Shown: positions 3,155-41,335 of the stretch, one piece after another
How positions within the stretch are numbered: the stretch's first letter is position 1
Layout of the letters: each line of letters begins with the position of its first letter
Source: Candidatus Latescibacterota bacterium
GTDB lineage: Bacteria > JAAXHH01
Direction of reading: 5' to 3'
Assembly (NCBI GenBank): GCA_022822725.1
Contig: JAJEAN010000007.1
Coordinates: forward strand, 1,499,045 to 1,563,044
DNA length: 64,000 bases
Made by a program: the position numbers and the translations under genes
Notes under the pieces: generated by a model
What the model saw: the letters and a program-made list of their open reading frames with translations, nothing else
Told to the model about the DNA's origin: nothing
The model's database searches: none

Positions 3155-4312
3155 ATGCGACAGTACCGTGTTGCTATTCTGGGCTGCCGCGGCCGGGGCA
3201 CGGCCGCGGGCCGCGCGTACCATCAGCATCCACGCACCGAGGTTGTGGCACTATGCGATCTCGTGCCCGAGCTATTGGCGACCCTCGGTGACGAACTGGG
3301 GGTTGCAGCTCGATATGACGATCTCGACCGGATGATCGAGGCCGAGGCCCCGGACATTGTCGCCATTCCCACGGGTACCGAGTTCCACTATCCGCTGGCC
3401 ATGCGCGTGCTGGAGCACGGAGTCCACATCGATATCGAAAAGCCGATCTGCACGACCCTGGCCGAGGCCGACGCGGTGCTGGCCAAGGCCGCAGAGAAAG
3501 GCGTCCAGGTAGCCGTGCATCACCAGGGGCGCACCGGCGGCGCGCTGCAAGCCGTCAAAGCGGCGATTGCCGAGGGCCGGATCGGCGACCTGCGCTACCT
3601 GCAGGGCAGCGGCAAAGGCTACTACGGCGGCTACGGCCTGATGAATATCGCCACGCATTCGCTAAATGCCATGCTCGGCGTTGCCGGCCCGGTGCGAAGC
3701 GTGCAGGCCGTGGCCCTGACCGATGGCCGCCAAATCACCCCCGAGGATGTGGTGCCTTCGCCAAGTGGCATGGGCTACATTGTCGGTGAGCACGTGACCG
3801 CGGCGCTTGCATTTGAACGCGGAATTTCGGGTGTCCTCCTGCAGCACCGCTTCCCGAAGATGGATTCAACGGCCTATATGATCGAGATCTATGGCACCGA
3901 GGGCAGGCTCTACTGGAAAAGCGGCGCCCCGTGGTTTCTGTCCACGCCGCACTTCGCCCCCGGCCATACCGAGTGGCAGCCGCTCGCTCCCATCGTGCCG
4001 GAGCACTACGATCCGGCGGGACCGGCTTCCCTGGAGGACTACCAGTTCGCCGATGAGTATGTGCAGGCGCTCGATGAGGGCCGTGCGCACGAGTGTTCGG
4101 GGGACGCCGGCCGCCATGTGCTGGAGATTCTGATGGGGATTTTCGAGTCGGGCGCACGCGGTCGGCGCGTGGACCTGCCGCAAGCGGAACGCGATCACCC
4201 GCTCCTGCGCTGGCGCGAGGAACACGGCCTGGGCCCGCCCGGCCCGATGCCGCGCCCCTATACGGAATGGATCGCCGCGGAAGACGGCCGTTTGGGCCGA
4301 AGTGCGGGCTAG
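3155..4312 (+). CDS. Gfo/Idh/MocA family oxidoreductase
   Basis: 385 residues from the ATG at 3155, preceded by AGGAAAGGTG. The N-terminal Rossmann fold binds NAD(P): VAILGCRGRGTAAG carries the glycine-rich loop (residues ~6-19). The family EKP motif appears in DIEKPICTT (residues ~95-103), where the lysine normally contacts substrate and cofactor. The C-terminal part (from ~130) is the mixed-sheet domain that binds a sugar or inositol-like substrate. No signal peptide, so cytosolic. It faces the amidohydrolase gene convergently. The specific substrate cannot be assigned. Confidence 0.88.
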   Translation: MRQYRVAILGCRGRGTAAGRAYHQHPRTEVVALCDLVPELLATLGDELGVAARYDDLDRMIEAEAPDIVAIPTGTEFHYPLAMRVLEHGVHIDIEKPICTTLAEADAVLAKAAEKGVQVAVHHQGRTGGALQAVKAAIAEGRIGDLRYLQGSGKGYYGGYGLMNIATHSLNAMLGVAGPVRSVQAVALTDGRQITPEDVVPSPSGMGYIVGEHVTAALAFERGISGVLLQHRFPKMDSTAYMIEIYGTEGRLYWKSGAPWFLSTPHFAPGHTEWQPLAPIVPEHYDPAGPASLEDYQFADEYVQALDEGRAHECSGDAGRHVLEILMGIFESGARGRRVDLPQAERDHPLLRWREEHGLGPPGPMPRPYTEWIAAEDGRLGRSAG

Positions 4313-37407: not shown

Positions 37408-38259
37408 ATGCACACCACGCTGATCGACGTTCAGACATTGCACCAGCATATACAGGATCCGAACTGGAGCGTGATCGACGCCCGGTTCTCCCTGGCCGAC
37501 GCGGGGCAGGGCGCCAGGGAATACGCGGAAGGCCACGTGCCCGGTGCCGTGTACGCCCACCTGGACGACGACCTCTCCGGACCTATCATTCCAGGAGAAA
37601 CGGGCCGGCATCCGCTGCCATCGGTGGACCGGGCCGCGGAGGTATTCTCGCGAATGGGGATCGACGAAAACGTACAAGTCGTTGTCTACGACGGTGCGGG
37701 CGGTTCGGTAGCCGCCAGGGTGTGGTGGATGCTCCGCTGGCTGGGTCATGATGCCGTCGCCGTGGTGGATGGCGGCTGGCCGGCCTGGACCGGCGCGGGC
37801 CTGCCGGTTACGCGGGACGTACCGGAGGCGAGTCCGCGGACGTTCAAGGCCAATGTCCAGGCGCATATGGTCACCGACGTGGAGGGCGTTGACAGGTACC
37901 GGAAGAATGTGGACTGGGCCGTCCTGGATGCCCGCACACAGGAACGATTCCGCGGCGAACAGGAACCCATTGATCCTATCGCCGGCCACATTCCTGGGGC
38001 ACGGTGTGCGACCTTCGATGCGAATCTGGGGGAGGACGGGTGCTTCCTGCCACCGGAGGAACTGAGACGGAGATTCGAAGGGTTATTCGGCGACGTGCCG
38101 GCCGACCGCGCCGTAAACTACTGTGGTTCAGGGGTCTCGGCCTGCCACAACCTGCTCGCCATCGCCCACGCGGGACTGGGCGACGCCGTGCTCTACCCTG
38201 GGTCCTGGAGCGAGTGGATTACCGATGAGGAACGGCCGGTTGGGGTGGGGGAGGAGTGA
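37408..38259 (+). CDS. Sulfurtransferase with two rhodanese domains (thiosulfate or 3-mercaptopyruvate type)
   Basis: 283 residues from the ATG at 37408. Two rhodanese modules are visible: the inactive N-terminal one (VIDARF...GHVPGAVYAHLDDDLSG, then VVVYDG) and the catalytic one (VLDARTQERFRGE, GHIPGA, then NYCGSGVSACHN with the active cysteine around residue 237). The CGSGVSA loop is closer to mercaptopyruvate sulfurtransferases than to classical rhodanese. It moves sulfane sulfur to cyanide or thiol acceptors. No signal peptide. Confidence 0.92.
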   Translation: MHTTLIDVQTLHQHIQDPNWSVIDARFSLADAGQGAREYAEGHVPGAVYAHLDDDLSGPIIPGETGRHPLPSVDRAAEVFSRMGIDENVQVVVYDGAGGSVAARVWWMLRWLGHDAVAVVDGGWPAWTGAGLPVTRDVPEASPRTFKANVQAHMVTDVEGVDRYRKNVDWAVLDARTQERFRGEQEPIDPIAGHIPGARCATFDANLGEDGCFLPPEELRRRFEGLFGDVPADRAVNYCGSGVSACHNLLAIAHAGLGDAVLYPGSWSEWITDEERPVGVGEE

Positions 38260-38609: not shown

Positions 38610-39014
38610 CTATCGGTCTTTGGAAACAAACTCAGTAAGAGTAGCGAGGCTTTTTGCGTGTTGTTCAGTCTCGAACTCAGAAAGACCTTCTGGTAGGACT
38701 ATGTTGCCATGAAATGGGTTGCAGCGTGTAGGGGACCTTTCTACTGACCTACCCTGCCGACAAACATCGTCAACCTGCAGTACCCTCCACCCATAGAACC
38801 TTCGTACATCGGTATTCTTGTTTGTATGATACGTCACCAGAAAATCAAAGTCATCGAGATTACTGGGATCGAATAGATCAACCGATAGTTTGTGCTCCCC
38901 CTTCGGCGGTAAGAATGGCTTGATTTGCTGGTTCCGATGTTTCCGAGAATAGATTCCTCTGCCAATTCTGATGTACAGTTTCTGAGAATTTGAAATGGAA
39001 ACTACCGAGGGCAA
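38610..39014 (-). CDS. Unknown protein, third gene of an AT-rich cassette
   Basis: 134 residues from a TTG at 39014, chosen because GGAGGT stands five bases upstream. No family named. Coding character is good in the middle and end: FLPPKGEHKLSVDLFDP, a FYGWRVLQVDDV segment and a SPTRCNPFHGNIVLPEG segment followed by an alanine-rich helix (AKSLATLTEF). Its first 137 bases overlap the preceding gene in another frame, which is long for bacteria; either translation is coupled there or the two were one gene before a frameshift. No signal or membrane segments. Confidence 0.55.
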   Translation of the reverse strand: MPSVVSISNSQKLYIRIGRGIYSRKHRNQQIKPFLPPKGEHKLSVDLFDPSNLDDFDFLVTYHTNKNTDVRRFYGWRVLQVDDVCRQGRSVERSPTRCNPFHGNIVLPEGLSEFETEQHAKSLATLTEFVSKDR

Positions 39015-39447
39015 GATGTACCTCCATTACTCTTGTCAGAGAACTTACCTCTTTACTTGAAGAAAACTCCCTTAACCACTCCATATCTGAAAGCAACATC
39101 GAACGGTATCTTTTCCGTTTGACCTCGTGAACCGAAATAGTCCTATCTGGCTTGCAGATGAACGATACAGAATGCCCTTTTTTTATATCAAAATTGATAG
39201 CGACCTTCCCCTCATCAAGAAGTTCCGCGCCTATCGAAAGGCCGGGAGAGAGATATTGTTCCACCACAGTCTTAGCATCGGACAATACCTCTTCCGATGG
39301 AGGAGTCAAACCTTCGGCAATCTCCTCATCGAAATCGAACAGGACCTCATCATTTGTATGAGCAAGAGTCTCAAACCCCGTCCAGGTGTGATTAACAATA
39401 AATACCTGAGTGGTTTCAGTAGGAGCAGGAGACGTTTCATTTGTCAT
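38878..39447 (-). CDS. Unknown protein, second gene of the cassette
   Basis: 189 residues. ATG at 39447 lies 11 bases inside the end of the preceding gene, with a GGGGG purine run upstream. Acidic N-terminal half (VLFDFDEEIAEGL, then PPSEEVLSDAKTVVEQYL), central strands VAINFDIKKGHSVSFICK and a basic VHEVKRKRYR segment. No known motif, no cysteine pair, no membrane helix. The last ~45 residues run in the region shared with the third gene and look less protein-like than the alternative frame. Confidence 0.55.
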   Translation of the reverse strand: MTNETSPAPTETTQVFIVNHTWTGFETLAHTNDEVLFDFDEEIAEGLTPPSEEVLSDAKTVVEQYLSPGLSIGAELLDEGKVAINFDIKKGHSVSFICKPDRTISVHEVKRKRYRSMLLSDMEWLREFSSSKEVSSLTRVMEVHLALGSFHFKFSETVHQNWQRNLFSETSEPANQAILTAEGGAQTIG

Positions 39448-39799
39448 TTTCCGTACCCCCTTCGAGTTGACCTATCTTTTCCCCGAGCCATTTATGCAAC
39501 GATTTTGCCGAACTCGGACTCAACACTAGTTCTACCTCGAACTCCCGATGTATTTGGCCGTGCATCTTCCTTTCGATTTCTTCTCCAACCCTGAACCCAT
39601 CCTTATCGGGGGACTCCAAGGCCTTGTGCACAATTTCGGTCGGATACGCGGTGCGCTCAGAATATGGACAAATAACGAGATTCCCGGTATGTGACGCCCC
39701 TCCGAAACACCCATCAACATGGATAACCCGATAGTGTTTGGATCGCTCAATTTGCACCACCACTTTATCAGGCAATGGGCTTGAATCACCATTGGACAT
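39437..39799 (-). CDS. Unknown protein, first gene of the cassette (weak DUF3467-like pattern)
   Basis: 120 residues from the ATG at 39799, seven bases after GGAG; upstream in-frame ATGs lack such a site. HYRVIHVDGCFGGASHTGNL followed by PYSERTAYP and, near the end, EVELVLSPSSAKSLHKWLGEKI resembles the DUF3467 layout (a strand pair with a surface glycine turn, then a helix that ends in a leucine-tryptophan motif). That likeness is from memory and weak. Expressed with the two genes that follow it on the minus strand. Confidence 0.6.
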   Translation of the reverse strand: MSNGDSSPLPDKVVVQIERSKHYRVIHVDGCFGGASHTGNLVICPYSERTAYPTEIVHKALESPDKDGFRVGEEIERKMHGQIHREFEVELVLSPSSAKSLHKWLGEKIGQLEGGTENDK

Positions 39800-39841
39800 G
39801 ACCTGACTCCTCATTAGTTGAGTGGAGATTCTGTAAGACAC

Positions 39842-39876
39842 AAAAACCCCGTAGCGGATAAGCTACGAGGCTTTTG
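39842..39876 (-). terminator. Hairpin with T run ahead of the cassette
   Basis: CCCCGTAGC and GCTACGAGG flank a short loop (one mismatch); on the minus strand the stem is followed by TTTTTG. It would stop transcripts arriving from the right, insulating the cassette, though it also has CTTTTG on the plus side. The remaining bases to 40108 show nothing else. Confidence 0.6.
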
Positions 39877-40108
39877 TATTTCGAATGACAACTCATCAAT
39901 AACTAAATTAACATACCTATCAATAGAACTCAAGTGGTTTTTGCTTGACTTTCTTGATTGTAAGGTTATTGGTTTCTCCTCAGCCTTAGTGATACTCTCA
40001 CGCGCCTAAGTATTGAGACTACAGAAAAATGAAATTCTTAATTAAGGACCATGGCTATCGCCCTCTACCGAACACAGCAGGGATTGTATCGGAAGTCGTA
40101 TAGCAGGA

Positions 40109-40390
40109 TTACTTTATTTCGCGCCAATCGATTACCTTGCGACCTACCACATTCGCAGGTTTCTCAAGTGTTGTCAGTATGTTGAATTCCACTTTGAGTT
40201 CAGTCTTAGTAGATTTATAACGCTCCGGCTTTAGCATGATGACCGGGCGGATCGGACGGCGATAAATGAGATCAAGAACGCCGCCAACCTCGTTAAAACT
40301 GCAGTCTCCAATCTCGCGATTGACCACGCCTCCTGACCTCGTTGTAGTCGAAATCCTCACTTCCCAAACGCATACCTGAAAGTCACCCAC
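40109..40390 (-). CDS. Hypothetical short protein
   Basis: Up to 93 residues in an AT-richer stretch behind the glycosyltransferase, overlapping its end by 34 bases. The C-terminal two thirds (GGVLDLIYRRPIRPVIM, then KTELKVEFNILTTLEKPANVV) read as plausible protein, with alternating strands. The start is uncertain: a GTG at 40390 or internal GTG codons are possible, and none has a convincing ribosome site. Could be a gene fragment. Confidence 0.35.
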   Translation of the reverse strand: MGDFQVCVWEVRISTTTRSGGVVNREIGDCSFNEVGGVLDLIYRRPIRPVIMLKPERYKSTKTELKVEFNILTTLEKPANVVGRKVIDWREIK

Positions 40391-41061
40391 AGAATCTTCA
40401 CCCCCGCCCTCACCGCGCCGGACAGTGTCCCGGTGATCTTGGAAACTCCGACTCGCTTGCGGTAGCGCACAGGCACGTCTAGCGTTCTATATCCCTTTTG
40501 CGCCGCCTTGATCTGCATTTCGACGGTCCAGCCGAAGTTCTGATCCACCATGCCCAGTTCAAGCAGTCGGTCGTAACGGATGGCCCGGAACGGTCCCAGG
40601 TCGGTGTATCGGTGGCCGTAGAGCCACTGGACGATACGGGGTACGAGGATGTTGCCGATCAGGGCCTGGACCGGCATGGCACCCGGTGCGCGGCGTCCCA
40701 TCATCCGGGATCCGATCACCATGTCGTACCCGTCTTCCACGATCGGCCGCACCAGGTCCGCCATCTCTTCCGGGTAATCGCTGTAGTCGCCGTCCAGGAA
40801 CACGATGACGTCCGGATCGAACCGGGCGGCCTCGGCCATGCCACGCAGGCAGGCGGCCCCGTAACCGCGCCGGGGTTCTCGCACCACGACGGCCCCGCCC
40901 TCCTCGGCCACGGCGCCGGTCCGGTCCGTCGAACCATTGTCCACGACGATCACGGCCGTCGCCATCCCCTCCGGGATATGCTCCAGGACCAGCCCGATCG
41001 AATCCTCTTCGTTCAGGACCGGTATGATGACCACGATGGTCTGGTTGTTTGTTGGTCTTCC
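40357..41061 (-). CDS. Family 2 glycosyltransferase (polyprenyl-phosphate type)
   Basis: 234 residues from the ATG at 41061; the longer upstream frame is only repeat DNA. GT-A features: IVVIIPVLNEEDSIG at the start, VDNGSTDRT, then LDGDYSDYPEE containing the DxD metal site, and the acceptor region with GSRMMGRRAPGAM. LGPFRAIRYD and the NFGWTVEMQIKA segment place it with dolichol/undecaprenyl-phosphate mannosyl- or glucosyltransferase-like enzymes. It lacks the C-terminal membrane pair of some relatives. Works at the cytosolic face of the inner membrane, substrate unknown. Confidence 0.88.
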   Translation of the reverse strand, partial: GRPTNNQTIVVIIPVLNEEDSIGLVLEHIPEGMATAVIVVDNGSTDRTGAVAEEGGAVVVREPRRGYGAACLRGMAEAARFDPDVIVFLDGDYSDYPEEMADLVRPIVEDGYDMVIGSRMMGRRAPGAMPVQALIGNILVPRIVQWLYGHRYTDLGPFRAIRYDRLLELGMVDQNFGWTVEMQIKAAQKGYRTLDVPVRYRKRVGVSKITGTLSGAVRAGVKILWVTFRYAFGK

Positions 41062-41065
41062 CATA

Positions 41066-41128
41066 TCAGGCCGCGCCGATCTAATTTCAGGCCGCGCCGA
41101 TCCAGTTTCAGGCCGCGCCAAATCCCCT
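41066..41128. repeat. 21-bp tandem repeat, three copies, abutting the glycosyltransferase start
   Basis: TCAGGCCGCGCCGATCTAATT and two variants lie directly upstream of the ATG at 41061 and create an apparent N-terminal extension (SARPEIRSARPDM). The rest of the gap to smc (41129-41335) shows no further feature. Confidence 0.88.
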
Positions 41129-41335
41129 TCGATCCCCACCTCGATCCGCCTCAAACCCCTGTCTGTCCGCGCTCCGGGCGGATGCTCACCTGCCATACAT
41201 GATGTATAAATCGCTTGACATGGCCCCTACATATACTAATATATCCCCTTAACAGTCTCCTGAAACCCATTTTCAACCCGATCCGACTTTACCGTATTTC
41301 AAACCGGCTGTATTCGCCATCAGGATCCGTGTCCG

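Follow-up and report, generated by a model that had tools for sequence, protein, structure and literature searches.

A low-GC three-gene cassette of a Latescibacterota genome as a candidate horizontally acquired tripartite toxin-antitoxin module

Three overlapping genes, here termed A, B, and C, lie on the minus strand of the window, i.e., the whole stretch of 64,000 nucleotides of Candidatus Latescibacterota DNA analyzed in this study. We consider that A-B-C probably represent a horizontally acquired tripartite toxin-antitoxin (TA) module, which follows the logic of the toxin-antitoxin-chaperone (TAC) systems with a different first component, a helper of a type not connected with them before. 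In the proposed mechanism, C would be a toxin that stops growth, and B would be an unstable antitoxin, the core of which binds C. A, the putative chaperone or sensor, would recognize the low-charge tail at the N-terminus of B and fold or protect B. If A were titrated or sensed away, for instance by a phage protein, B would be lost, C would be released, and growth would stop. We infer that C is toxic, that B neutralizes it, that A acts as a chaperone, and that the release is triggered in this way.

Gene A (39437..39799, 120 aa) starts with ATG at 39799, preceded by the Shine-Dalgarno sequence GAGGAG (39807..39812, minus strand); an alternative GTG start at 39841 would extend the product to 134 aa. 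A is directly upstream of gene B (38878..39447, ATG at 39447, 189 aa), the start of which overlaps the stop of A. Gene C (38610..39014, 134 aa) starts with TTG at 39014, overlaps B by 137 bp, and has its own Shine-Dalgarno sequence, GGAGG, inside B (39021..39025, minus strand). These coordinates, the lengths of the three open reading frames, and the ribosome site of C agree with the sequence-only reading of this DNA, as does the presence of a terminator-like hairpin on the upstream side. The hairpin (39838..39879), which was detected by a terminator scan, comprises an 18-bp stem (RNA fold z = -4.7) and is flanked by a U-run on either strand, albeit the pattern scanner listed it on the plus strand. 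As the stem is nearly symmetric, termination could occur on either strand, and the hairpin is a putative bidirectional terminator that could insulate the cassette. The three genes were also claimed to be AT-richer than their surroundings, and their third-position GC contents (0.50, 0.42, and 0.47 for A, B, and C, respectively) are indeed low versus those of the neighbor genes (0.76-0.86).

The overlap between B and C invites another explanation, namely that the cassette is a remnant in decay that no longer functions, with the overlap and the TTG start of C as traces of a frameshift. The 137-bp overlap sets B apart from the majority of its homologues, which end ahead of C, and two of the related copies (L022 and L024) appear damaged. 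On the other hand, none of the three reading frames is interrupted, their ribosome sites are good, the structure of C was predicted with a pTM of 0.77, and C retains the residues invariant among its relatives. Furthermore, B of the nearest relative (L009) overruns C in the same manner by 74 bp, and it is the more distant B proteins that stop just before C. Thus, the frameshift suspected in the earlier reading is not needed to explain the overlap, and we regard the decaying remnant as very improbable.

The tripartite module that we favor resides in a low-GC island (38260 to about 40354-40356; 45.3% GC versus 62.4% for the window), which is sandwiched by convergent genes encoding a sulfurtransferase (37408-38259, plus strand) and a glycosyltransferase (40357-41196, minus strand). 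In five congeners (L103, L104, L106, L107, and L109), the two flanking genes abut with only a few to ~20 bp between them. The island is therefore a clean insertion of ~2.1 kb (about 2.09 kb) in the genome of the window. A search for direct repeats at the insertion ends found none. Gene A was not found in any of the 11 other genomes of the genus, and gene C was found in one of them (G007) at a different place in the genome.

The same junction carries other cargoes in the relatives. In the congener G001, it is occupied by a phosphorothioation defense island of ~15 kb (L118, 170-15390), which comprises the genes for SspA (or DndA), SspB, SspC, SspD, an MzaB-like ATPase, PLD-like and GIY-YIG proteins, and a relative of DndB. 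In G007, an Ssp island of this kind begins at the junction, where the contig ends (L117), while G008 possesses a gene for an Ig-like protein of 622 aa there (L116). At its right end (40266..40346), the island of the window is identical at 69 of 81 positions (85%) to the glycosyltransferase-proximal end of the different island in G007; different cargoes at the junction thus have a boundary remnant in common. A minus-strand open reading frame of 93 aa at this end (40109-40390), the upstream part of which is common to G007, is probably a remnant as well. Altogether, the absence of the insertion from five congeners, the foreign composition, and the Ssp island at the site in a sister genome strongly support that the cassette was acquired horizontally and is mobile. 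With variable insertion and known defense genes at the site in relatives, the cassette has the marks of mobile defense-island cargo, and the sulfurtransferase/glycosyltransferase junction emerges as a defense-island hotspot in the genus.

None of A, B, and C matched Pfam, NCBIfam, PADLOC, or PHROGs above the thresholds, and these protein family searches, together with PDB and fold searches, ruled out that the products are pieces of a known enzyme. When plasmids and phages were searched with single proteins, no match was detected for A, B, or C and likewise none for the relatives of C. The sole match in the plasmid search was an A relative on a Methylorubrum megaplasmid, and the search of viral contigs retrieved one A relative and no C relative.

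Relatives of C were found in Latescibacterota, Poribacteria, Chloroflexi, Gammaproteobacteria, and Aestuariivita, and in nearly all of these loci a B relative lies immediately upstream of the C relative. The adjacent B-C pair was recognized in L009, L010, L016-L021, L023, and L024, and we count the co-occurrence of B and C in at least nine loci other than the window. B has, besides an N-terminal tail of low charge (about residues 1-32), a core with the conserved 'PPSxxALxxAKxLL ... EGxIAIxF', while C is characterized by 'SVxRxD ... F[YW]GW ... NP[YF]HxxI.LP', the invariant residues of which are kept in the window. The homologues in other phyla carry the motifs pointed out earlier as signs of genuine proteins, and we regard the products as such. 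A weak match to B in G048 (L008/L011, E 9.5e-4) was dropped, as the region is ordinary metabolic. In L017, VapBC-like (PIN) toxin-antitoxin genes are located directly downstream of the B-C pair (3370-4096).

In most of the B-C loci, a first gene of ~230 aa is present, which belongs to one of three sequence types, all distinct from the A family. In the closest B-C loci (L009, L010, and L018), the first gene belongs neither to the A family nor to TIGR04255 (see below), and no obvious first gene was seen in L016 and L017. Homology of the ~230 aa first genes (the A21 and A22 groups) to TIGR04255 was not supported when tested. The association of B-C with several unrelated first genes, or with none seen, fits an alternative in which B-C is an ordinary two-gene TA pair and A either regulates transcription or is a passenger with no relation to the pair; that orphan genes of the A family exist points in the same direction. 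However, A sits directly upstream of B with the stop and start overlapping, as A-family genes do with several different TA pairs, and the same pair is found behind both A and TIGR04255 with the N-terminal tail exchanged (see below). In addition, the predicted structure of A lacks a DNA-binding element, which is at odds with a regulator. We thus regard the ordinary two-gene pair as unlikely.

The tripartite reading draws on operons led by TIGR04255, a family detected in 30 of 240 sampled genomes. TIGR04255 is typically followed by a small variable gene and then by a third gene. A trio of TIGR04255 (117.8 bits against a cutoff of 30), a B-like gene, and a C-like gene was identified in L029 by a profile search, and relatives of both B and C follow TIGR04255 in L045, L052, L062, and L066 as well. 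In the profile comparisons with hhalign, C and the TIGR04255-linked third genes matched with 97.8% (E 8e-13), and the B family and the TIGR04255-linked second genes matched with 87% (E 4e-6). Among the loci read (L040-L069), the third genes behind TIGR04255 include PIN (L049, L056, L059, and L063), HEPN (L040, with L041 just under the cutoff), and DUF7689 (L044). In these loci, TIGR04255 appears to serve generally as the first component of tripartite toxin modules, with PIN, HEPN, DUF7689, and other uncharacterized pairs. The literature searched contained no mention of TIGR04255 or DUF7689, and the only paper in it that mentions DUF3467 was unrelated.

The A family, the alignment of which comprises 31 sequences (A16), was detected in 9 of 384 sampled genomes; within one phylum, 39 of 395 genomes possess it. 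Its members are located upstream of PemK/MazF (L002, 52 bits; L081, 39 bits), of weakly HicA-like genes below the Pfam cutoff (L079 and L086), and of a pair composed of a 149 aa protein and a DUF7689-like protein (L014 and L033). The order of A followed by a B-like gene was found in L072, L074, and L080, and the B family and the A-linked second genes matched with 92% (hhalign, E 8e-7). The third genes in these three loci bear 'NYSHSEI'; they have no more than a motif in common with C, and their homology to C was not significant in the profile comparison. For this reason, the strict trio of A, B, and C homologues is confirmed only in the genome of the window. The refutation named in the sequence-only reading, namely that the three do not co-occur in other genomes, thus applies only in part, as B occurs with C and A with B-like genes elsewhere. 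Many members of the A family stand alone next to housekeeping genes such as miaB, and the A family is thus not confined to conflict modules. For instance, an orphan A-family gene is directly upstream of a miaB-like gene in L088-L097, all of one genus. In L085 (1815-2433) and L091 (1799-2439), an A-family gene is followed by a gene of 141-144 aa, the product of which has a coiled-coil and winged-helix-like look, and then by a gene of 69-78 aa; these loci are another candidate tripartite module.

The two first-gene families, A and TIGR04255, and likewise the B-C pair, occur in tripartite operons that often have a known toxin (PIN, HEPN, or PemK) as the third gene, and we read the cassette as a conflict system on these grounds. 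In the sequence-only reading, the cassette was a candidate for a mobile defense or conflict system. Mobility stands on the insertion described above, and the conflict role is supported by guilt by position. A different kind of conflict system can be considered as well, namely an anti-phage effector complex without TA logic, with A as the phage sensor, B as the adaptor, and C as an enzyme that is activated directly. Such a complex would suit the absence of a known toxin fold in C, the insertion at the site where the sister genome has SspABCD, and the restriction-modification genes adjoining several of the B-C copies (a type III methylase in L018 and, by inspection, an Eco57I-like methylase in L009), of which the latter two also count in favor of the tripartite TA module. 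Nevertheless, both first-gene families repeatedly precede the classical TA toxins PIN, HEPN, and PemK, which argues for the control of a toxin rather than direct activation, and we regard the effector complex as improbable.

The pair of the 149 aa and DUF7689 proteins is located behind A in L014 (4143-5022) and L033 (1845-2733) but behind TIGR04255 in L044 (2229-3135). Residues 53-148 of the second protein in L033 align with residues 62-157 of that in L044 with a score of 244, whereas the first 52 and 61 residues, respectively, are unrelated to each other. This is the one homologous pair in which an exchanged tail, located N-terminally, was seen. In a set of ten A-linked second genes, the charged fraction was 0.19 in the first 35 residues versus 0.33 in the core (paired Wilcoxon p = 0.002). 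An exchanged N-terminal tail of low charge has the appearance expected if the first gene product reads the tail. The addiction tails of TAC systems are transferable and usually C-terminal but also work when grafted at the N-terminus (PMC5105189).

The AF2 model of C (pLDDT 82.6) had no significant fold match in PDB; weak matches to topoisomerase, aminotransferase, and triosephosphate isomerase were at the chance level. As C bears no known fold, a toxic activity cannot be read off the model. Among the viral predictions (BFVD), there was a single candidate, A0A9E7QQI2, an unnamed protein of 149 aa (probability 1.00, E 0.012, TM 0.51), which is perhaps a phage-carried copy of C. In the AF2 model of A (pLDDT 90.7, pTM 0.63), antiparallel strands precede a single long helix at the C-terminus. 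Neither the comparison of the 31-sequence profile with PDB sequences nor that of the model with PDB structures (Foldseek top 50) found a match, SecB included. Tests of whether A or TIGR04255 is SecB gave no support for this idea. In its role in the operon and its general alpha+beta build, the modeled A resembles a SecB-type chaperone, and its identity as a chaperone is putative.

If the proposed module is genuine, the two widespread unnamed families, TIGR04255 and the A family, gain a hypothesis for their function, chaperone-addiction control extends beyond SecB, and C becomes a new candidate toxin, the structure of which is predicted with confidence and matches no known fold. We further raise, as a tentative possibility, that the control of TA systems by chaperones reaches far beyond SecB. 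At least the A family (DUF3467-like) and TIGR04255, mutually unrelated, would then be chaperone-sensors that plug into modules with many different toxins, each being matched by an N-terminal tail of the antitoxin that can be exchanged, and C would be a toxin with a fold absent from solved structures.

Among known families, DUF3467 (PF11950) shares a faint similarity with the A family (13-15 bits, best in the last strand and helix), albeit every tested member fell below the 25-bit cutoff and A of the window had no match. The TAC systems, exemplified by HigB1-HigA1-SecBTA of M. tuberculosis with a SecB-like chaperone (PMC5105189), consist of three co-directional genes like the cassette. They also resemble the A-type modules in that unrelated TA families can exchange the helper gene and the antitoxin has, or in the A-type modules may have, a transferable, variable tail. 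However, neither the sequence profile nor the predicted fold identifies A as SecB, A is the first gene of the operon, and the exchanged tail is N-terminal here while the known addiction tails are C-terminal. In addition, B and C match no known TA family, unlike the HigBA, HicAB, and MqsRA pairs of TAC; the relatives of A, unlike A of the window, do precede PemK and weakly HicA-like toxins. As the cassette failed the defining SecB test, we do not file it as a TAC member. CmdTAC, a toxin-antitoxin-chaperone defense system in which CmdC is drawn off by the T4 capsid protein (PMC11618068), shares with the cassette the defense setting and the tripartite logic proposed here and offers a model for the release of a toxin triggered by a phage protein, but neither an ADP-ribosyltransferase such as CmdT nor a SecB-like protein such as CmdC was detected in the cassette. 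The operons led by TIGR04255 ('sporadTIGR04255' in NCBIfam, with no function given) differ from the cassette in the first gene, as TIGR04255 (about 250 aa) is unrelated to A by profile (0.2%) and A of the window has no NCBIfam match, yet their second and third genes are homologous to B and C.
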